From Halobacteriales archaeon YIM A00010 (lineage in GTDB: Archaea > Halobacteriota > Halobacteria > Halobacteriales > Haloarculaceae): DNA of 64,000 nucleotides. Positions 50,836 to 63,813 of the stretch are shown here, piece by piece; within the stretch, counting starts at the first letter, position 1, and each line of letters starts with the position of its first letter. A model generated the notes under the pieces. The model was given only the letters and a program-made list of their open reading frames with translations, made no database searches and had not been told where the DNA came from. The stretch spans positions 620,001-684,000 of the forward strand of contig JAKCFJ010000004.1 in the NCBI GenBank assembly GCA_025041175.1. Direction: 5' to 3'. The position numbers and the translations under genes are program-made.

Positions 50836-51528
50836 GGGAATCGATCTCGATCGGGGAGTGGCTGGGAGTTCCTACTGTCGGAGCGCTCGTTCTCGCGGCC
50901 GGTCAGTGATGGCTATATTTGGGGGTATACACACGCACTATTGTAATGGAAACGCGATTTGTTCAGATGTATCACGGCTATACATGATGTTTGTGATACG
51001 CAAATCAGATTTTACCGTTAGACGATGACAGTGATCACCTCGAAGCCATCTGAATCACGGTTCCAGGCATCCTCGCCGTTACAAACGTAGTATTGTAATG
51101 GGGTGTTATCCATCTACTTATTGTCCGGTCGATACCGACGCCCGCACTCATGTCCCTCTTTATTATCGGAACTACACAGCCAAATTGGACAGCAGGATGA
51201 TCGAGGGTGTGCTCGCCGATGAGATATTGAATCGTGAACCGGACCTCTGTGATCTCCGGATCACCAGTAGCCGAAACACGATAGAACCCTCCACACTGCA
51301 GCTTTCGAAACCTGTTTCCGACGAATCTGAGCGTCGGAGCGATGTGGACACCGGCGATCTGAAATCGCTCCCGTTCGATTCTGAGAGTGACATTGACTCC
51401 GAACTGTAACCCCGAAATGATGACTTCAAGCCGAACCAGGTCCTGTAGTCGCATCTCATCTCCAACGGCCAATCCCAGTCGCTATTCAGTTGTAAAGTAT
51501 ATCCACCTCCAGCGCAAACGGAGTGACA
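50836..51528. other. Intergenic region upstream of the second orc
   Basis: About 690 bases. Overlapping frames on both strands (51098-51409 plus; 51035-51472 and 51172-51465 minus) lack recognisable domains. The string TATTGTAATGG occurs twice (near 50939 and 51091). The 22-bp iterons of the first orc are not present here. AAAGTATATCC at about 51494-51504 may be the TATA box of the gene at 51529. Confidence 0.35.
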
Positions 51529-52701
51529 ATGAAACCCGGGACGATCGGCGTCGGAGATATGGAAGCCGTTTTCGAGAACGTGTCGCTATTGAGTACCGAA
51601 TTTATCCCCTCAACGGAGCGCATCGTCGGACAGGAAAATCAACTCGCCCTCCTCGACTATGCAATCAGCCCCCTGCTCTTCGACCAACCGTCAGACAATA
51701 TCCTCCTACGCGGTCCGCCTGGAACCGGAAAGTCGCTTTGTGCCTCGTATATCGCTCAGCGTGAGGTCGGTAGCTTGTTGGATAAAGGGATGTCAGCGAT
51801 CTGGGTTGACATCGACTGTCGACGGACGAGGACCGAGTCGCATTTGCTGCGTGTCATCGGACACAGCGTCCGCCAGCCAGAGAACGATCTATCGATTCCC
51901 GAACGGGGACTGAGCAAAGACGAGTACCGCGCCCGTCTTCGAGAGTATCTGAGCGACAACTTTGATGTGATCATTGTGATACTCAACGATGTCCACGTGC
52001 CACGGGACGAGGAACTCTCTGGCCTGCTGCGGACGCTGCGCGGCGTGGATGAATGTCTGGTCGGTCTTCTCGGCATCGCTAGGGATGTCCGCAACGGTGC
52101 GCCGACGATCGATACCGATCAGTGGGACCGGAAGTTCACGTACGACCCGTACAGTTGTGACATACTCCACGAGATACTCCGAGCACGTCTCGATGCATTC
52201 ACTCCCGGCGTCGTGGGAGATGATGTGCTTGATGAGGTCGTCGACCGCGCATCCGCGGATCGACCGAACGCGCGGCGGGGGATCGATCTCCTCCGCGTCA
52301 CTGGTATGGTAGTCGCTGCCGATGGCGCTGAACGGGCCGAACCATCCCACGTCGAACACGCGACGCTCCATGTCGATGGTGCACAGACCAGCGATTATCT
52401 GCGTGGACTCTCACTTCACTCGATTCTCCTTTTGTCGAGTCTCGCGACGGTGACGGGATTGAACGATTCCAACCCTCGGACATCCGAAATCTATTGCCAG
52501 TACGAAGTCGTCTGCGAGCGGCGCGGTGTCGATTCGCTTTCGAAGCGCCGCGTGCGGGACCTACTCCGGGAACACGAGTATCTCGGCCTCACGGACCGAT
52601 CCACGGTCAAGGGAGGAAGGGGGGAAGGAAACTACGGCGTCCACGAACTCCGACTAGATCCTGATCAGATAATCGACATCGTTGAGCATCGTCTCGACTA
52701 A
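51529..52701 (+). CDS. Divergent Orc1/Cdc6-family protein
   Basis: A 390-residue protein from the ATG at 51529; a GTG two codons earlier is possible. AAA+ core: Walker A RGPPGTGKSLCASYIA. The Walker B strand reads FDVIIVILNDVHVPRDEELS, with Asn-Asp where Asp-Glu is usual. Sensor 1 region VGLLGIARDVRNG; sensor 2 region RPNARRGIDLLRVTG. A C-terminal winged helix follows (VDSLSKRRVRDLLREHEYLG). Haloarchaea carry many such divergent Orc paralogues, often on plasmids. The altered Walker B suggests reduced ATP hydrolysis. Its stop overlaps the next small frame (TAATG). Confidence 0.88.
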   Translation: MKPGTIGVGDMEAVFENVSLLSTEFIPSTERIVGQENQLALLDYAISPLLFDQPSDNILLRGPPGTGKSLCASYIAQREVGSLLDKGMSAIWVDIDCRRTRTESHLLRVIGHSVRQPENDLSIPERGLSKDEYRARLREYLSDNFDVIIVILNDVHVPRDEELSGLLRTLRGVDECLVGLLGIARDVRNGAPTIDTDQWDRKFTYDPYSCDILHEILRARLDAFTPGVVGDDVLDEVVDRASADRPNARRGIDLLRVTGMVVAADGAERAEPSHVEHATLHVDGAQTSDYLRGLSLHSILLLSSLATVTGLNDSNPRTSEIYCQYEVVCERRGVDSLSKRRVRDLLREHEYLGLTDRSTVKGGRGEGNYGVHELRLDPDQIIDIVEHRLD

Positions 52702-53193: not shown

Positions 53194-54216
53194 ATGGTAA
53201 TCCACTCTCGATGTGTCTGCATAAAACGTTTTGTCAATGATCCAGCAGCCGTAGTCGATGAGATGCTCAATGGATTCGTAGCTGCACACGACGGCCGTGT
53301 ACGTCGCCCGGACGACACCGACCTCGTCGTTCGCTCCGACGCTCCCGTCGAAGGGAAGGTAAGTGTTGTGACAGGTGGGGGCAGCGGCCATGAGCCGATG
53401 CACGCCGGGTACGTGGGTTCGGGAATGCTTGACGGCGCCGCCGCGGGCGCGATCTTCACGTCACCACCAGCGACGGAGTTCGCCGATCTCATCGATGAAG
53501 TCGACAATGGCAGCGGCGTCCTCGCTGTCATCAAGAACTACGAGGGCGACATCATGAACTTCGAGACAGCGATCGACCTGGTTGGGGACGCCGACGTGGA
53601 GACGGTCATTGTCGACGACGACGTCGCCGTTTCGGAGGAGACGGACAAGACTGGGCGCCGCGGTGTCGCCGGAACGATCCTCGTCCACAAGATCGCGGGT
53701 GCGAAGGCAGCCCAAGGTGCATCGCTCTCGGAGGTTCGGAAGGTCGCAGAGAGAGTGATCGAGAACGTGGCGTCGATGGGCGTCGCTCTGACCTCGTGTA
53801 CGCCTCCCGAGAAGGGAAGTTCCACGTTCCAACTGGGTGACGAAGAGATCGAGCTCGGTATCGGTATTCACGGCGAGCCCGGAATCGAGCGTACCCAACT
53901 CGATAGCGCAGACGAGGTGACGGAGCAGCTGGCGGCACCCGTCGTGGAGGATCTCGAGCTGAGCGCCGGCGACGAGGTCGCCGTCATCGTCAACGGTCTC
54001 GGTAACACGCCGCTCGGCGAACTTTACGTCGTCAACCGAAAGCTCGACGACATACTCTCGGACGCCGACGTCGATGTCTATCGCTCTCTTGTCGGCGAGT
54101 ACTGCACCTCGTTGGACATGAGTGGTTGCTCGATCACGCTGCTCGAACTGGACGAGGAACTGAAGGAACTGCTCGATTACCCCGCAGCCACTCCCACGCT
54201 CACTATTCGAGAATGA
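53194..54216 (+). CDS. dhaK: Dihydroxyacetone kinase subunit DhaK
   Basis: A 340-residue PTS-dependent type DhaK: KRFVNDPAAVVDEMLNGFVA, VVTGGGSGHEPMHAGYVGSG (substrate cradle), MDGxPT region replaced by SPPATEF, and GIGIHGEPGIER with the His that binds dihydroxyacetone as a hemiaminal. The family's natural start would be at KRFVNDP, but that position has ATA-AAA. The only in-frame start before it is the ATG at 53194, just after a TATA-like TTATTTAT, so the true 5' end is uncertain. Phosphorylated DhaL would serve as the phosphate donor. It overlaps dhaL by 4 bases. Confidence 0.92.
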   Translation: MVIHSRCVCIKRFVNDPAAVVDEMLNGFVAAHDGRVRRPDDTDLVVRSDAPVEGKVSVVTGGGSGHEPMHAGYVGSGMLDGAAAGAIFTSPPATEFADLIDEVDNGSGVLAVIKNYEGDIMNFETAIDLVGDADVETVIVDDDVAVSEETDKTGRRGVAGTILVHKIAGAKAAQGASLSEVRKVAERVIENVASMGVALTSCTPPEKGSSTFQLGDEEIELGIGIHGEPGIERTQLDSADEVTEQLAAPVVEDLELSAGDEVAVIVNGLGNTPLGELYVVNRKLDDILSDADVDVYRSLVGEYCTSLDMSGCSITLLELDEELKELLDYPAATPTLTIRE

Positions 54217-54920
54217 CCGGCTCTGATACGTCTGTACAGCAGGATCTTTCGTCCGAAGCGCTGATCGTCAAACTCGTCGAGCGAATCGCCCGCCGGGTCG
54301 ACGACGAGAAGGAATATCTGACCGAACTGGACTCGAAGATCGGTGACGCCGACTTCGGTGTGAACCTGGATCGCGGACTGACCGCTGTTCTGGAGGAACT
54401 CGACGGGATGGATGTCGAGAGCACGTTCGCGGCGGAAATCGTCGAGACGGTGGGGAGAGTGTTGATGTCCGAGATGGCTGGCTCGTCTGGAATCCTCTTC
54501 GGCGGCGGCCTGATGACTGCGAGCGCCGAGATCAAAGGCGGTACGGACGCCGAGTCGTTCGTCGCGTTCGCGTGGGCGTATGTGGATCACGTTGAGGAGA
54601 AAGGCGACGTTTCTATCGGCGCAAAGACGATGTTCGATGCGATCGTGCCCGCTGTCAACCTCCTGTCGAAGTCCGTCGAACACGACGAGCGATCTCCGGC
54701 CGAGACGACCGGCGCTGCGCTCGCGGCGGCCCGGCGCGGTGCGAAGTTCACAAGTACGCTTGAGGCAAAGAAGGGCCGCGCGTCGTATGTTGAGTCGCGT
54801 TCCATCGGTCATCCTGACCCTGGGGCAGTCTTCACCGCAATCGTATTCGAGGAAATCCACTCACTCGTTCAGGAAGCTACCGACCAAGACATCGCCGCGG
54901 ACGTCGACGACCCACTGTGA
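54213..54920 (+). CDS. dhaL: Dihydroxyacetone kinase subunit DhaL
   Basis: A 235-residue DhaL from the ATG at 54213, overlapping the dhaK stop (ATGA). The ADP-Mg binding Asp cluster is present in LTELDSKIGDADFGVNLDRG. GRVLMSEMAGSSGILFGGGL and IGAKTMFDAIVPAVNLL are typical. DhaL carries an ADP that is re-phosphorylated by DhaM, and passes phosphate to dihydroxyacetone on DhaK. No dhaM is in this window; HPr and a IIA are encoded downstream, so the phosphate donor is an open point. Confidence 0.93.
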   Translation: MTGSDTSVQQDLSSEALIVKLVERIARRVDDEKEYLTELDSKIGDADFGVNLDRGLTAVLEELDGMDVESTFAAEIVETVGRVLMSEMAGSSGILFGGGLMTASAEIKGGTDAESFVAFAWAYVDHVEEKGDVSIGAKTMFDAIVPAVNLLSKSVEHDERSPAETTGAALAAARRGAKFTSTLEAKKGRASYVESRSIGHPDPGAVFTAIVFEEIHSLVQEATDQDIAADVDDPL

Positions 54921-56034: not shown

Positions 56035-57507
56035 ATGATAGACCAGCCCATACCACTGCAGACAGACGGTTTAGTAGAGGCTGCGCAGTTGCTGCAAGAA
56101 GCGATCTCGGCGATGGGGCCGACGCTGTTAATGCCGGTGATCATCTTCGCGTTCGGGATCATCTTCGGACTGCAAGCCCGCAAGTCCTTCCGACTCGCGC
56201 TACTGGTCGGCGTCGGGTTCGTCGGAATCTTCGCCGTGCTCGGGTACACGCTGGGTCCGATCGGCGATACGGTCACGGCGCTCTCCGAGACGTACGGCCT
56301 GAATCTCGAAGGCGTCGACATCGGTTGGGCTCCGGTCGCCGGATTCTCGTGGGCACTCGGTGTGACCGTTCTGATGATCCCGATCGGCTTCGCCGTCAAC
56401 GCAGTAATGCTCTTTACGGGTCTGACGAAGACGTTCGACGCCGACGTCTGGAACTTCTGGCATTGGGCGTTCAACGCCGGCATCGTCTATGTTATCACCG
56501 GTAGCTGGCCACTCGCGCTGGCGGCCGGCGTCGTCGCTGAGGTGATCACGCTCCTACTCGCGGACTGGACGGCCGAACTCGGCCAGGAGTACTTCGGCGT
56601 CCCTGGGACTAGCCTCCCGCACACTGAGAGCGTCGCCCAGGCGCCGTTCGCGTTCGCCATCGACAAGGTGCTGCGTCAGACTCCCGTCATCGGCACGGCC
56701 GACGTCAGCCCCGAGTCGCTGGAAGAGCGGTTCGGTGTCTTCGGCGAACCGATCGTAATCGGCTTCATGGTCGGCCTGTTCATCGGCGTCATCTCGATGG
56801 AGCCGCCGATGGTCATCTTGCGAACCGCGTTCCTAGTCTCCGCGCTCTTGACGCTGCTGCCGCGGATGGTTGGGCTCCTCATCGAAGGGCTCCAGCCCAT
56901 TGCCGACCAAGCCTCCGACTACTTCGAGAACAGCGAGTGGTTCAACGCTGACGAGATCTACATCGGTATCGACGCAGGCCCGATCGGGCTCTCTGACACG
57001 CCCGCGGTCGTGTCCGGTCTCATCCTCGCCCCGTACGCCGTGATGCTCGCGTTCTTCCCGGGGGTCAACGTCATGCCGCTCGCCGATCTCACCACGATTG
57101 CGATCTTCACGTGTATGTGGGCCGCTGCGATCAGCAACGGTAACATCGTTAGGACGGTCATCAACGGCGCCATCATACTGACGATTATCACGTACGTCGC
57201 CTCGTTCCTCGCGCCCTACATCACCAAGATGGGCGAGATCAGCGGCAGCCTCGCGGATGTGGAAGCCAGCGCCGAACTCGTCACCGCGATCTCAAGGGGC
57301 GGACAGTGGTGGATTATGGGCGCCACCTCGCCGCTCGCGCTGCCCGGTAGTGTTGGCGTTGAGGTAGTCGCCGTCGGCGTCGGCACGGCCGTTGCGGCGG
57401 CCCTCTGTTACCTCTGGACGCGAGACATGCCCGAGGATGTCCTTGACCAACAGGTCTCCGATACCGTCGAGACACCAGACACCGGCGCGACACCGACCGA
57501 TGACTGA
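56035..57507 (+). CDS. PTS galactitol-type EIIC permease
   Basis: A 490-residue polytopic protein of the galactitol-type EIIC family (GatC). Helices include GPTLLMPVIIFAFGIIFGLQ, FVGIFAVLGYTLGPIGDTVT and LMIPIGFAVNAVMLFTGLTK, followed by TFDADVWNFWHWAF, the family hallmark. The C-terminal half has WIMGATSPLALPGSVGVEVV and a short soluble tail. It would transport and phosphorylate a polyol or sugar acid with IIA (60288) and IIB (61134). The family is rare in archaea and characteristic of haloarchaeal PTS loci. It starts a run toward EI. Confidence 0.9.
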   Translation: MIDQPIPLQTDGLVEAAQLLQEAISAMGPTLLMPVIIFAFGIIFGLQARKSFRLALLVGVGFVGIFAVLGYTLGPIGDTVTALSETYGLNLEGVDIGWAPVAGFSWALGVTVLMIPIGFAVNAVMLFTGLTKTFDADVWNFWHWAFNAGIVYVITGSWPLALAAGVVAEVITLLLADWTAELGQEYFGVPGTSLPHTESVAQAPFAFAIDKVLRQTPVIGTADVSPESLEERFGVFGEPIVIGFMVGLFIGVISMEPPMVILRTAFLVSALLTLLPRMVGLLIEGLQPIADQASDYFENSEWFNADEIYIGIDAGPIGLSDTPAVVSGLILAPYAVMLAFFPGVNVMPLADLTTIAIFTCMWAAAISNGNIVRTVINGAIILTIITYVASFLAPYITKMGEISGSLADVEASAELVTAISRGGQWWIMGATSPLALPGSVGVEVVAVGVGTAVAAALCYLWTRDMPEDVLDQQVSDTVETPDTGATPTDD

Positions 57508-57651: not shown

Positions 57652-59202
57652 ATGACCACGGCGGATTCCGGGCAGCGTCTCGCTGGCACCGGCGTGACGC
57701 CGCTGAAGGGCGTTGGAATGGCGTGGCGCTACGATGACGGTGTCAAACTCCCGGATAGAGCCGATCCGGACGATGTCTCCCCCGCGGCGGAGATCGAGCG
57801 GTTCCAGTCGGCGCGTACGAACGTTCGCGAGGACCTTGACGCCGAGCGAGAGCGCTCCCGCGAACGAGTCGGCGAGTCGGAGGCCGACATCTTCCGGGCG
57901 CACAAGCAGTTTCTTGATGACCCGACCATCTCTGAGGCGGCGCACAAGGCCATCGAGTCCGAGATGCTCGCCGAACACGCCGTCGTGTCCGCGTTTGAGG
58001 AGTCGATCGAACAGCTAGCGGCCGCGGGCGGCCGTATGGCCGAACGAACCGACGACCTGCGGGACGTCAGGGATCGGCTCTTACGCGAGCTGGTCGGCGC
58101 CGAGGGGAACGGCCTCAACGATGTCCCGACAGGGGCTGTCGTCGTTGCTGACCGTCTCACGCCCAGTGAGACCGTCGCGCTCGATCCCGACGACGTCGCG
58201 GGCTTCGTCACCGCCGAGGGTGGGCGGACGTCGCACGCCGCGATCGTCGCACGGTCGCTCGGGATCCCGGCGGTCGTCGGCGTTGGCGACGCCGTCGACG
58301 AAATCGAGGATGGCAAACGGCTCCTGGTCGACGGTAATGACGGCGAAGTCGTTCGATCACCCGACGACGACGTAGAGGCCGCGTGCACGAACGATCTCGC
58401 GGACGTCCGCCACGAATCGGTGTCGACCACCGCCGGTCGAGGCATCGAGGTCGCAGCGAACGTCGGCTCGACGCAGGCTATTGAGAGCGCGGCCGACCGG
58501 GGCGCCGACGGTGTCGGGCTGTTCCGCACCGAGTTTTTCTTCCTCGAACGTGACTCGCCCCCGAGCGAAGCCGAGCAGTTCGAAGCGTTCGAACGGGCAC
58601 TCTTGGCGTTCGAAGGCAGACGAGTCGTCGTCAGGACGCTTGACGTTGGCGGCGACAAGTCTATCCCCTATCTCGACGTCGAGGCGGGGAGCAACCCGTT
58701 CCTCGGTCTCCGTGGCATCCGCTTAGCGCCCGGGGAGCGGCCGGAACTGTTCAAGCCGCAGGTTCGGGCTCTACTTCGAGCCGCCGCGACGGAGCACGGC
58801 GATGCGCTCTCAGTGATGTTCCCTCTGATCGCTAGCGTGAACGAACTAGACGAAGTGCTCTCGACCGTTGAGGCCGTGGCGGACAACCTCAAGGACGAGC
58901 GCGTCGAGTCGCTCCATAATCCCCTCTCCCCCGCCGTCTTGCGCGCGATCTCGCGGGCCGTCGATGCCGCTCACGAGGCCGACTGCTGGGTCGGGATGTG
59001 TGGCGAGATGGCCGGCGATCCCGACTTGACGCCGCTGCTGGTCGGCCTCGGCCTCGACGAACTCAGCATGAGCGCCGTCACGGTGCCGGAAGTGAAGTCC
59101 GTCGTCGACGGGCTCCACGAGGATGCCGTCCGGGCGCTCGCGATGGACGCGCTCGCGGCGTCGACGCCCGAGGAGGTCGCGGCGCTGCTCGACGAGTGGT
59201 GA
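57652..59202 (+). CDS. ptsI: PTS enzyme I (PEP-protein phosphotransferase), lacking the PEP-binding signature segment
   Basis: A 516-residue EI. The phospho-His domain is intact (AEGGRTSHAAIVARSLGIPA, His about residue 193), and the start of the PEP barrel is normal (GADGVGLFRTEFFFLERDSP; GGDKSIPYLDVEAGSNPFLG LR; LSVMFPLIASVNELDEVL). Around residue 410 the sequence jumps from VEAVADNLKDE to RVESLHNPLSPAVLRAISRA. The segment that normally holds the EVP Glu and the IGTNDLTQY Asn/Asp is missing, about 50 residues, in frame. The catalytic Cys loop GMCGEMAGDP follows. Usual length is ~560-570. It may be inactive or divergent. Confidence 0.9.
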   Translation: MTTADSGQRLAGTGVTPLKGVGMAWRYDDGVKLPDRADPDDVSPAAEIERFQSARTNVREDLDAERERSRERVGESEADIFRAHKQFLDDPTISEAAHKAIESEMLAEHAVVSAFEESIEQLAAAGGRMAERTDDLRDVRDRLLRELVGAEGNGLNDVPTGAVVVADRLTPSETVALDPDDVAGFVTAEGGRTSHAAIVARSLGIPAVVGVGDAVDEIEDGKRLLVDGNDGEVVRSPDDDVEAACTNDLADVRHESVSTTAGRGIEVAANVGSTQAIESAADRGADGVGLFRTEFFFLERDSPPSEAEQFEAFERALLAFEGRRVVVRTLDVGGDKSIPYLDVEAGSNPFLGLRGIRLAPGERPELFKPQVRALLRAAATEHGDALSVMFPLIASVNELDEVLSTVEAVADNLKDERVESLHNPLSPAVLRAISRAVDAAHEADCWVGMCGEMAGDPDLTPLLVGLGLDELSMSAVTVPEVKSVVDGLHEDAVRALAMDALAASTPEEVAALLDEW

Positions 59203-59240: not shown

Positions 59241-59897
59241 TCACTTCAGACTGCGGTACTCCTCGAGGCCGTCGAGGAGCGCTTCGATTTTCTCGTCCTC
59301 GAGGATGATTGGCTCGCCGATATTGGACGCCTGGTAGTGGATCCTCGCGGTGAACTCGATCATCTGGGCCGTCTCGACCGCTCGTGAGACGGTGTCGCCG
59401 ACGGCGATCACGCCGTGGTTCTGCAGGAGGCAGCCGTTGTAGTCGTCGCCGAGGGCGTCGACTGCGTGCTGTCCGAGTTCCTCGGACCCAGGCAGGTCGA
59501 AGTCCGCGACCGGAATTTCCGTGCCGCCCGCGAACTCGACGAGGTAATGCGACGCCGGGATTTCCTGGCCCAGCGAGGCGAACGTCGTGGCGTATGGCGA
59601 GTGAGTGTGAACGACGGCGCCGACGTCCGGCCGCTTGCGGTAGATCATCGTGTGCATCGGCGTCTCGCTGGAAGGTCTGAGATCGCCTTCCACGTGCTCA
59701 CCGTCGACCGTGACGACAGGGACGTCTTCTGCGTCGATACGATCGTAAGGAATCCCGGACGGGCTGATCGCGACCCGCTCGTCGTCCCGTTGACTGAGGT
59801 TCCCTCCGACGCCGCTCGTCAGATCCTTCTCTACCAGTTCTCTCCCGAACTTTGCAACTGCAGTACGCTCTTCACCGAGTGCTAACTGTTCCGCCAT
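59241..59897 (-). CDS. Class II aldolase/adducin family protein (fuculose-phosphate aldolase-like)
   Basis: A 218-residue protein from the ATG at 59897 (MAEQLALGEERTAVAKFGRE), which follows a TATATAG-type box by ~30 bases; longer starts overlap the divergent promoter. Zn ligands are in VGAVVHTHSPYATTFASLGQ (HTH) and CLLQNHGVIAVGDTVSRAVE (His). Phosphate-binding SGVGGNLSQR and ISPSGIPYDRI fit fuculose-1-phosphate aldolase-type enzymes, which release dihydroxyacetone phosphate plus an aldehyde. It is divergent from ptsH and encoded within the PTS locus, so it likely cleaves the sugar phosphate made there. Confidence 0.9.
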   Translation of the reverse strand: MAEQLALGEERTAVAKFGRELVEKDLTSGVGGNLSQRDDERVAISPSGIPYDRIDAEDVPVVTVDGEHVEGDLRPSSETPMHTMIYRKRPDVGAVVHTHSPYATTFASLGQEIPASHYLVEFAGGTEIPVADFDLPGSEELGQHAVDALGDDYNGCLLQNHGVIAVGDTVSRAVETAQMIEFTARIHYQASNIGEPIILEDEKIEALLDGLEEYRSLK

Positions 59898-60012: not shown

Positions 60013-60285
60013 ATGCAAGAGTCTGTCACTTTGTTCCACGAGAAGGGATTGCACGCGCGACCCGCGTCAGTGCTCGTTCAGACCGCGTCGTCCTACGATG
60101 CGTCGATCGAGATTCTGAAGGACGGCAAGAGCGCGAATGCCAAAAGCAGCGTCGCGGTTCTTTCGCTCAACGCCGACAAGGGCGACGAGATCACGATCCG
60201 CGCCGACGGCGACGACGACGAGGCCGCTGTTGACGCGCTCGTCGAACTTGTCCGCACTGACTTCGATCTCGAGACGGAGGCCTGA
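60013..60285 (+). CDS. ptsH: HPr phosphocarrier protein
   Basis: A 90-residue HPr from the ATG at 60013: MQESVTLFHEKGLHARPASV, with the phospho-His in GLHARPAS, then DASIEILKDGKSANAKSSVA VLSLNADKGDEITIRADGDD. The residue at the regulatory Ser position (KSSVAVLSL) is Ser-like, but archaea lack HPr kinase as far as I know. It relays phosphate from EI to IIA. The IIA gene starts 2 bases after its stop. Upstream frame extension to 59965 overlaps the TATA box and is rejected. Confidence 0.94.
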   Translation: MQESVTLFHEKGLHARPASVLVQTASSYDASIEILKDGKSANAKSSVAVLSLNADKGDEITIRADGDDDEAAVDALVELVRTDFDLETEA

Positions 60286-60287
60286 GT

Positions 60288-60731
60288 ATGCAGACGGAAG
60301 TCGTCCACTTCGACGCCGAGTCCTCGACCGACGCGCTCAAGTCGCTAACGTCCGTCGCTGAGTTAAACGACTACGTGACCGACGCCTACGGGGAGGCGCT
60401 CCTCGATCGCGAAAGCAAGTTCCCGACGGGAATTTATATCCCACTACTAGACTACAGCGTCGCGATTCCGCACGCGGACGCAGATCTCGCTACAGAACAA
60501 GCCCTCGTCGTCGGTGTTCCAGAGTCGTCAGTCCCGTTCGACAACATGGAAGCGCCGGAGGAAACCGTTGATGCCGAGCTCGTACTGCTACTCGTCGTCA
60601 CCGATACTGATGGGTACTCGGAGTTTCTCTCGAACCTCGTGCCGCTCTTCCAGGAGAAGTCGTTCTACGAGCACGTTCAGTCCGGAGATGGCGACGCCAT
60701 CGTCGAAAAGATCAGCGACGCCTGCCTCTGA
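60288..60731 (+). CDS. PTS EIIA component (fructose/mannitol/galactitol type)
   Basis: A 147-residue EIIA with the PTS_EIIA_2 pattern: SVAELNDYVTDAYGEALLDR, ESKFPTGIYIPLLDYSVAIP then HADAD, the active-site His following IP. The C-terminal half (VDAELVLLLVVTDTDGYSEF; LSNLVPLFQEKSFYEHVQSG) is normal. It accepts phosphate from HPr and passes it to IIB. It is directly behind ptsH and co-transcribed. The two genes downstream are on the opposite strand, converging on it. Confidence 0.9.
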   Translation: MQTEVVHFDAESSTDALKSLTSVAELNDYVTDAYGEALLDRESKFPTGIYIPLLDYSVAIPHADADLATEQALVVGVPESSVPFDNMEAPEETVDAELVLLLVVTDTDGYSEFLSNLVPLFQEKSFYEHVQSGDGDAIVEKISDACL

Positions 60732-60747: not shown

Positions 60748-61122
60748 TTAGACCACCGACTCGTACTCGTGGTCGATTTCGACATCGGCGCGTCCTATCG
60801 CATCGAGGAACTCTTTGAGTTCCGTGAGGACCTTTCTCTCTGGACGATAGTGGATCGAGAGCCAGGAGACATCGTAGAGGAATTCGACGTTACCTGGGGA
60901 TCCTTCGTCTCTGTCGATCGAGACGATGACTGTCCGGCTCGTCTTTTGCCAACTATGAGTGCCTACAGCGGTCCAGGCAGGGCTGCCGATGGTAAACACC
61001 AGTACTGAATCGCCACTCGCGCGATCAAGGTCGTACCCGTTGTCAGTGAAGTTGCTCTTGACATCGGCCAGGAACGACTCAGCGTCGTCGACAGCAACGT
61101 GACAACGGACTTTGCGTCCCAT
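60748..61122 (-). CDS. Hypothetical 124-residue protein in the PTS locus
   Basis: MGRKVRCHVAVDDAESFLAD, VKSNFTDNGYDLDRASGDSV, LVFTIGSPAWTAVGTHSWQK, TSRTVIVSIDRDEGSPGNVE, then a helix (LTELKEFLDAIGRADVEIDH). It has alternating strands and helices and no membrane segment or Cys motif. It lies 11 bases downstream of the IIB gene on the same strand, so they are probably one transcript. I do not recognise the family. An accessory to the PTS is inferred only from position. Confidence 0.6.
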   Translation of the reverse strand: MGRKVRCHVAVDDAESFLADVKSNFTDNGYDLDRASGDSVLVFTIGSPAWTAVGTHSWQKTSRTVIVSIDRDEGSPGNVEFLYDVSWLSIHYRPERKVLTELKEFLDAIGRADVEIDHEYESVV

Positions 61123-61133
61123 CGTACTTGGGA

Positions 61134-61430
61134 CTACTCTAACTCACTGGCCAGTTCTTCGTAGACTTCCTCCTCGCCGAATCCCGTCATCAGGTTCACA
61201 CCGTCAATGATCGGGACGTCGCTGTCGAGGTTCGGAGCGTTACCCGACATGATGACAACGGCGTCCGTGTTGTCGATCTGGCTTGGAAGCTCGGTGATCC
61301 GAGCGGTCGAGATATTGAGGTCGTGCTTCGTGAACCCGTAGTCGGGCATATTCTCTTCGAGCTTAGTCTTCGCGGTGGAAGACGTTGCCGATGCACTTCC
61401 GCAAGCAGCCAATATCTTGTACGACATCAT
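61134..61430 (-). CDS. PTS galactitol-type EIIB component
   Basis: A 98-residue EIIB: MSYKILAACGSASATSSTAK, with the phospho-Cys in the AACGSASATSS loop, then TKLEENMPDYGFTKHDLNIS, DNTDAVVIMSGNAPNLDSDV, INLMTGFGEEEVYEELASEL-like end. This is the GatB/lactose-cellobiose IIB-like fold expected with a galactitol-type IIC. Two tandem ATGs (61430, 61427) are possible starts. It is unusual in being on the opposite strand from IIC, IIA, HPr and EI, so its expression is controlled separately. Confidence 0.9.
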   Translation of the reverse strand: MMSYKILAACGSASATSSTAKTKLEENMPDYGFTKHDLNISTARITELPSQIDNTDAVVIMSGNAPNLDSDVPIIDGVNLMTGFGEEEVYEELASELE

Positions 61431-61575: not shown

Positions 61576-63017
61576 TTATATAATGTCAAGTAATTCGCCT
61601 TGATCCGCGAGATGAGTTCGCAACAGGGACGTAGTTCGCGAGTATCGTAGGTTGTTTGCGCAGACGACTGTCGTTCGGGCACCCGCCCGGAAACACGATA
61701 GGGCGATGTTTTCGTTGGGAGCGTGGTTGTTCTCGTCGGCGTTAGCGTACGGGACGACCAGACACGGGATGTCGAGGGTGTCCGCGAAGACGTACGCCGG
61801 CACGGAACCCCCGAGGGAGGGCTTGAGAATGGGGTTTTCGTTCCACCCCTCGCGGACGGCTCGCACCACTGGCTCGACGACGGGGTCGTCCGCCGGCATA
61901 CGCTGGGGGGCCATCGCCGCGCCGCGAGCGAGATCCACTTCGACACCTGCGGGCGCTCGCCCCTCGACGTGACGTGAGAGCAACTCGAAGACCTTGTCGG
62001 GATCCTGATCGGCCACCAGGCGGACGTCGATCTTCGCTTGAGCGCGCGACGGTAACACGGTCTTCATGCCCTCGCCGTCGTAGCCGGCGGTCAGTCCGGC
62101 GACGTTCAGGTTGGGGCGGCAGAGCAACCGTTCGATGTATCCTTCGCCGGGATCCGTAGCGACGCGGAGAGTCCGAGGTCGGCTTTCACCACCTCCTCGT
62201 CCAGCGGGATCGCCTTCAGCACCTCACGGTCGCGATCGGTCAGTGGACGCACGTCGTCGTGAAACCCTCAAGCGCGATTCGTCCGTCCTCGTCCCGGAGC
62301 GACGCGAGCAGTTCGACGATCGCGCTTGCAGGGTTGGGGACCGGTCCGCCGAAGTTCCCCGAGTGGAGGTCGCGATTCGCCCCGGTCGCCTCGATGTCGA
62401 CGTAGAGCAACCCCCGCGAGCCAAGCAGCACGTGCGGTCGGCCCGAGGGGTCGATCGGCCCGTCCGCCACGAACGCGAGGTCCGTGTCGAGTTCCTCGCG
62501 CCGTTCGCGGACGAGCCACTCGAGGTATTCGCTACCGCTCTCCTCCTCGCCCTCGATGAGCAGCGTCACGTCGGTCGGAAGTCCGGTCGTCTCGCGTAGC
62601 GCACGAACTGCACACAGGTGAGCGAACCACTGTCCCTTGTTGTCAACGGCACCGCGCGCGTACAGGCGCGGCTCGCCGCGGGTCCTTCGCGGACGGTCGG
62701 TTCGAACGGCGGCGAACGCCACTCTGCGGCCTTCGCCGGCTGAACGTCGTAGTGACCGTAGAGCAGCACCGTCAGTCCGCCGTCGTCCGCTTCGCCATCG
62801 GAGGTCACGTGGGCGACGACGGCCGGCCGCCCCGGGTCTCGACGATCTCCGCCTCGTCGAACCGGTACTCGAGACACGACCCCCTGACCATCGCCGCGCA
62901 GTCGTCGATCCCCTCCCCGGTCGCGCTGATCGACGGCTGGGCGAGCAACGACCGGAGGTCGTCAAGGAACGGTTCGTCGTAGCGTTCGAGGAACACGTGC
63001 GGCTCCGAGACCGTCAT
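61576..63017 (-). pseudogene. M20-family dipeptidase, several frameshifts
   Basis: Pieces of one M20/M28 peptidase in consecutive frames: [20 protein letters not shown] (start, 63017), [29 protein letters not shown] (first metal His/Asp), [36 protein letters not shown] (Glu pair), LLYVDIEATGANRDLHSGNF, then VDVRLVADQDPDKVF and LGGSVPAYVFADTLDIPCLV. Frame changes occur near 62830, 62690, 62260 and 62160. The order of domains is intact. It is either a young pseudogene or a place with several base-calling errors in GC-rich runs. Confidence 0.85.
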
Positions 63018-63124: not shown

Positions 63125-63813
63125 GTGTTCAGATACGGATGAAGTATGAGGCGGTTCGTTTTCTGAGTGTCATATGCCCGAAAACGCCCGCCTCAATGGA
63201 TGTTTGGACGACATCGACTTGGATTTTATGGAGCGAGAAGCAACACCGCGACTGTTGATGAAGCTCGGTATTCAGCTCCATCTTGCTGGATTATCTCTTT
63301 CAAATACAGTTTCTAGTCTTGAGATATTCGGTGTTGAACGGGCTCGTTCGACCGTTCACAATTGGGTTCACAAGGCCGACCTACAGCCCGAGACTGGACG
63401 AAGCCCGGATCACGTTGCGGTTGACGAGACCGTGATCCGACTGAACGACGAGCAGTATTGGCTGTACGCAGCTGTTGATCCCGAAACAAACGAATTGCTT
63501 CACACAATGCTTGAACCGACGACAAACACGGTTCTCGCTCAATCGTTTCTCACTGCACTCGCCGAGAAGCATGATGTTGCGGAGGCTGTGTTTCTCGTTG
63601 ATGGCTCGCATTCATTACAACACGCGTGTCGTCGACACGGCTTCGATGTCAGATATGAATGCCACGGAAATCGGAACAGCGTCGAACGTATATTTCGTGA
63701 AATAAAACGACGTACCTCTTCGTTCTCAAACTGTTTCAGCAATGCCAAAGCAGAAACTGCAAACGAGTGGCTCAGATCATTCGCCTTTGCATTGAATCAG
63801 CTAATCTGAACAC
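63125..63813 (+). mobile_element. IS6-family insertion sequence (ISH14/ISH15-type), intact
   Basis: Inverted ends GTGTTCAGAT (63125-63134) and ATCTGAACAC (63804-63813) enclose one transposase gene. The same ends bound the decayed copy at 17070-17758 and the truncated copy at 30641. No target duplication is visible in the flanks (CCGGCG versus TACCCT), suggesting later recombination. Confidence 0.9.
63174..63809 (+). CDS. IS6-family transposase
   Basis: A 211-residue complete transposase: MPENARLNGCLDDIDLDFME, FGVERARSTVHNWVHKADLQ (HTH-like), VAVDETVIRLNDEQYWLYAA (first Asp), VFLVDGSHSLQHACRRHGFD (second Asp) and GNRNSVERIFREIKRRTSSF (Glu), the full DDE set. It ends within the right inverted repeat. 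As the only uninterrupted copy in the window, it could still move and could mobilise the relics with matching ends. Confidence 0.92.
   Translation: MPENARLNGCLDDIDLDFMEREATPRLLMKLGIQLHLAGLSLSNTVSSLEIFGVERARSTVHNWVHKADLQPETGRSPDHVAVDETVIRLNDEQYWLYAAVDPETNELLHTMLEPTTNTVLAQSFLTALAEKHDVAEAVFLVDGSHSLQHACRRHGFDVRYECHGNRNSVERIFREIKRRTSSFSNCFSNAKAETANEWLRSFAFALNQLI

Follow-up and report, generated by a model that had tools for sequence, protein, structure and literature searches.

What becomes of a phosphotransferase system (PTS) whose Enzyme I (EI) lacks the segment that binds phosphoenolpyruvate (PEP)? The question is raised by a ptsI-like gene of Halobacteriales archaeon YIM A00010, found in a window of 64,000 nucleotides (contig JAKCFJ010000004.1, positions 620,001 to 684,000), which encodes a protein of 516 residues and lies among the genes of a PTS cassette. 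The initial annotation of this sequence proposed that the PEP-binding signature had been lost in frame and envisaged that the locus was dead at its first step, that another EI supplied the phosphate, or that the protein had changed its phosphate donor. The explanation regarded here as probable is that a recent in-frame deletion ended PEP-dependent autophosphorylation, and that the cassette is either fed in trans by the EI of a second PTS locus on contig C2 or stands idle.

The nearest EI found is an ortholog of 569 residues (G064:C32), which is 73.6% identical to the 516-residue protein over the sites that align. Ortholog residues 416-466 (51 codons, 153 nt) have no counterpart in the window protein, in which VADNL(KDE) is joined directly to RVESLHNP with the reading frame kept (Table 1); apart from this block, the two differ in length only by a single residue around position 242 and by the last residue. 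The block of 51 amino acids is found in all 39 full-length EIs aligned, and when 58 homologs are aligned with it, the window protein is alone in jumping from VADNLKDE to RVESLHNP. The deletion is rare, occurring in one of about 60 haloarchaeal EIs. None of the 114 EI-like ORFs collected, some of them overlapping, duplicate or of the PEP-synthase type, carries the same deletion. The Pfam PEP-utilizers_C match of the window protein is likewise broken, ending at profile position 168 and restarting at 217 of 293, and the solved bacterial EIs 2hro and 2hwg match it in two pieces with the break at the same place, whereas they align with the G064 ortholog over its full length. The ortholog, the alignment of 39 EIs and the breaks in the Pfam and PDB matches bear out the in-frame loss that had been proposed, including the passage from VADNLKDE straight to RVESLHNPL and the length of about 516 instead of about 565 residues. 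Comparison with other EIs, which the initial annotation had suggested as a check, places the block in every full-length EI and finds it missing in the window protein.

Candidates for further cases were considered and set aside. The EI of Halarchaeum acidiphilum (L081) lacks the signature region, but its frame changes after MFPLVTTVEEV, which likely reflects a frameshift or sequencing error, and in L124 and L149 the frame stops early while the signature is present. No closer strain or plasmid copy that might corroborate the allele was found in PLSDB, in 146 genomes of the family or in 392 genomes of the order.

Table 1. Features of the PTS cassette and of its EI gene in window coordinates; identities refer to the orthologs in G064.
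Feature	Position	Strand	Basis
PTS IIC, galactitol (GAT) family	56035..57507	+	family match; 80% identical
ptsI-like EI of 516 aa; 51 codons of the PEP-binding barrel deleted in frame	57652..59202	+	ORF, Pfam, ortholog and PDB comparison
Thr-Ser-His at residues 193-195, with the N-terminal domain's phosphorylatable His, kept	58228..58236	+	GGRTSHAAI
Deletion junction GAG/CGC, between 58899 and 58900	58897..58902	+	comparison with G064 ortholog
Cys450 (E. coli Cys502 equivalent), kept	58999..59001	+	GMCGEMAG
Class II aldolase, conserved cassette member; best NCBIfam match haloarchaeal ribulose-1-phosphate aldolase (below cut-off)	59241..59897	-	
HPr, GLHARPA site intact	60013..60285	+	family match; 72% identical
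PTS IIA, fructose/mannitol/galactitol class, IPHAD motif	60288..60731	+	family match; 77% identical
124-aa protein without Pfam match, flanked by IIA and IIB in each of the two cassettes	60748..61122	-	72% identical
PTS IIB, galactitol-like, active-site Cys retained (ILAACGS)	61134..61430	-	84% identical

The lost block contains 15 columns that are invariant in the 39 EIs, namely E431, N454, D455, R465 and eleven others (E. coli numbering, with which that of the ortholog is identical in the lost part). In E. coli EI the four named residues make contacts with PEP and Mg. With all four of these contacts in the missing 51 residues, the PEP-binding barrel is incomplete. Signature residues elsewhere in the protein, which had been named as a finding that would overturn the proposed loss, were sought in the alignments and by a residue check, and none was found. 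What is kept agrees with the earlier description of a retained phospho-His domain, start of the PEP barrel and Cys loop: the N-terminal domain (EI-N) matches Pfam PF05524 and PF00391 and has His195 within its GGRTSH motif, and R292, R328 and R354 (equivalents of Arg296, Arg332 and Arg358) are present, as is Cys450. Judging from the residues lost, the protein would no longer be capable of autophosphorylation from PEP. Its TIGR01417 score is nevertheless 406 bits against a cut-off of 341.7, and automatic annotation would still name it PEP--protein phosphotransferase despite the missing PEP site.

AlphaFold models of the 516-residue EI and of the G064 ortholog were built with the same homologs. 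In the ortholog model, the second half of the C-terminal domain mostly has pLDDT values of 90-98, and the domain superimposes on solved EI C-terminal domains with TM scores of 0.94-0.96 and deviations of 1.1-1.3 Å. The corresponding values for the 516-residue EI are 0.71-0.74 and 3.5-4.5 Å, pLDDT falls to 39-67 in the junction region, and ortholog strands 425-430 and 448-452, two of the eight barrel strands, are missing. The N-terminal domain is alike in both models, with a TM score of about 0.8 to 1zym. Any loss of 51 residues would lower the C-domain score, and the models support misfolding of a distorted C-terminal barrel without proving it. E. coli EI dimerises mainly through loops 333-366 and 453-477 (PMC5537066), and the deletion, which reaches residue 466, removes about half of the second loop.

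The genes around the shortened EI retain the features expected of working PTS components, as had been noted for IIC, HPr, IIA and IIB; their family matches and the readable GLHARPA, IPHAD and ILAACGS motifs suggest that these parts are functional. Matches of IIC, IIA and IIB to galactitol-PTS models all lie below the cut-offs. Ribulose-1-phosphate aldolase takes part in a pentose route of haloarchaea whose end products are dihydroxyacetone phosphate and ethylene glycol (PMC9700705), and a pentitol or ketopentose may be guessed as the substrate of the cassette. The order IIC-EI-aldolase-HPr-IIA-unknown-IIB recurs in G064, a genome of the same family and of genus g5, which includes Haloarcula, with arrangement and orientation conserved for all seven genes. 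Since the genes other than EI are 72-84% identical between the two copies, the cassette is real and common to two genera. A Cdc6/Orc1 gene lies near it both here (window 51523-52701) and in G064 (L146 5480-6754), which suggests that secondary replicons carry the cassette along. The flank beyond IIB contains a peptidase M20 family gene on the minus strand that is split over several frames and appears to be a pseudogene (window 61576-62965); a stretch within its 3' part (61665-62000) shares 89.6% identity with a Halomarina plasmid. An IS240-type (DDE) transposase (63174-63809) also lies downstream of the cassette.

A search of the rest of the genome for a second full-length ptsI, as had been advised, found one at G000:C2:52987-54657, with the E, N, D, R and C residues all present and about 50% identity to the 516-residue EI over the whole length. 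It lies in an operon with genes for a DeoR regulator, a PfkB kinase, IIC, IIA and HPr that resembles the haloarchaeal fructose PTS. EI genes occur in this genome only on C2 and C4, and each EI locus has one HPr gene, making two in the genome. The single DhaM is encoded on C1 beside DhaK at a locus with no EI of its own; if the DhaM system works, an EI must therefore already act across loci. A dhaK-dhaL pair without dhaM adjoins the PTS cassette (window 53194-54920), the sole DhaM being that on C1 by the second dhaK. A precedent for two PTS enzyme II complexes together with DhaKLM in one haloarchaeon is provided by Haloferax volcanii (PMC2841640). An excess of IIA over EI genes, which would be a sign of EI sharing, was seen in none of 109 related genomes, so that an EI normally comes with each PTS locus and supply in trans is not the visible habit of the family. 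In one genome, two partial EI copies (G078:C2:3418-3693 and 214945-215787) lie near two identical-scoring IIA genes and possibly represent a duplicated, broken fructose-PTS operon. The proposal that another EI supplies the phosphate is thus possible, with an intact candidate on C2 in its favour and the gene counts of related genomes against it; the C2 EI is the likely source.

The ends of the missing block offer a clue to its origin. In the G064 ortholog the triplet GAG stands in register at both ends of the 153 nt, and the window reads GAG/CGC at 58899/58900. The deletion could plausibly have arisen by slippage or end-joining between short direct repeats that include GAG, but three identical nucleotides, read from the ortholog, are by themselves weak evidence. 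The deletion is probably recent, because the shortened protein shows no relaxed selection, either by relative rate or by departures at conserved sites. Counts made with outgroups gave 32 window-specific and 52 ortholog-specific changes in EI, compared with 37 (window) and 36 (ortholog) in those of the other cassette proteins that had outgroups. At near-invariant haloarchaeal EI columns the 516-residue EI is off consensus at 5 of the 139 still present, while intact EIs depart at no more than 7, bar one outlier of 20. The dN/dS ratio against the ortholog is about 0.13, with dS near saturation, and mostly reflects the time before the deletion. The features of a pseudogene, namely relaxed constraint and frameshifts or stops after the lesion, are missing: the frame is open and substitutions are not in excess. 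This absence of long decay is compatible with a very recent loss; the normal level of substitution could equally mean selection on the shortened protein, and the rate and constraint data fit a recent loss, an artefact and continued selection on the remainder alike.

Deletion of the block would thus have taken two strands and four catalytic, Mg- and PEP-binding residues from the C-terminal barrel, probably abolishing PEP-dependent autophosphorylation while leaving the phospho-His and HPr-binding parts of the N-terminal domain. The galactitol-type cassette would then either receive phosphate in trans from the fructose-PTS EI of C2 via HPr, or be inactive and starting to decay. Death at the first step, as originally suggested, accordingly describes what has probably befallen the protein's own PEP reaction and not necessarily the cassette. 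Should the cassette still work, the organism would offer a naturally occurring case in which to ask whether a single archaeal EI is able to supply several PTSs.

An ordinary, recent loss of function, with no new kind of enzyme involved, is the best reading of this allele. Its main rival is an artefact of assembly, consensus or culture: the organism may still possess the 153 nt, or the short form may be a minority allele or one acquired in the laboratory. Against an artefact stand the gap of exactly 51 codons with a clean join at a shared GAG, the assembly of the genome in 7 contigs at 99.7% completeness, and the fact that assemblies do not usually collapse at repeats only a few nucleotides long; an artefact is considered unlikely on these grounds, even though it would suit both the uniqueness of the deletion among the EIs examined and the healthy appearance of the rest of the protein. 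In E. coli DhaM, the EI-like domain is proposed to be phosphorylated by HPr~P; in the same way, the N-terminal domain of the 516-residue EI could receive phosphate from the HPr~P of the other system and pass it to the local HPr, coupling both PTSs. This domain and its His195 are intact in sequence and model, it is matched by the DhaM model (NF008478), relaxed selection is absent, and EI-N is the established HPr-binding, phosphorylatable part of EI (PMC8295985; PMC5537066). However, a long-selected relay would be expected to shed the more than 200 residues of non-functional C-terminal domain that remain, the form is seen in no other genome, and HPr could be shared directly with no relay between. 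Such a relay is rather improbable, and improbable to a further degree is the maintenance by selection of a PEP-dead EI as a relay or regulator coupling the galactitol-type PTS to the fructose PTS.

Cooperation between the two EIs of the genome would be another way to preserve function, the truncated subunit being active only when paired in a mixed dimer with the C2 EI, which is intact and about 50% identical to it over the whole length. Intragenic complementation between E. coli EI mutants in vitro offers a parallel (Brokx et al., 2000, as cited in PMC5537066), but the deletion up to residue 466 takes part of the 453-477 interface loop, and a mixed dimer is very unlikely. Least credible is the idea that the protein now draws on a phosphate donor other than PEP. 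Loss of the PEP site with retention of the phospho-His would fit such a change, yet nothing took the place of the lost block: no domain has been inserted or substituted, the protein has gained no element for binding a nucleotide or a substrate, and the residual ORF is that of a typical EI with no sign of adaptation to a new task.

Among known systems, the 516-residue protein shares with PTS Enzyme I (PtsI; TIGR01417; PEP-utilisers_N, PEP-utilizers, PEP-utilizers_C) its domain order, phospho-His, R292/R328/R354 and Cys450, as well as an operon context with HPr, IIA, IIB and IIC; it differs in lacking E431, N454, D455, R465 and two barrel strands, which would make the defining PEP reaction, as it is known, impossible. 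The fructose-PTS EI of C2 belongs to the same family but is intact, and the EI of the G064 cassette, 74% identical, is full-length with all catalytic residues. In DhaM (E. coli type, NF008478), the EI-like domain resembles the window protein as an EI-N module that has no functional PEP site. DhaM, however, is a fusion with EIIA-man and HPr that has no barrel remnant, whereas the window protein contains EI domains only, the EIIA-man of this genome (DhaM) being encoded on C1, and derives from a full EI by deletion.
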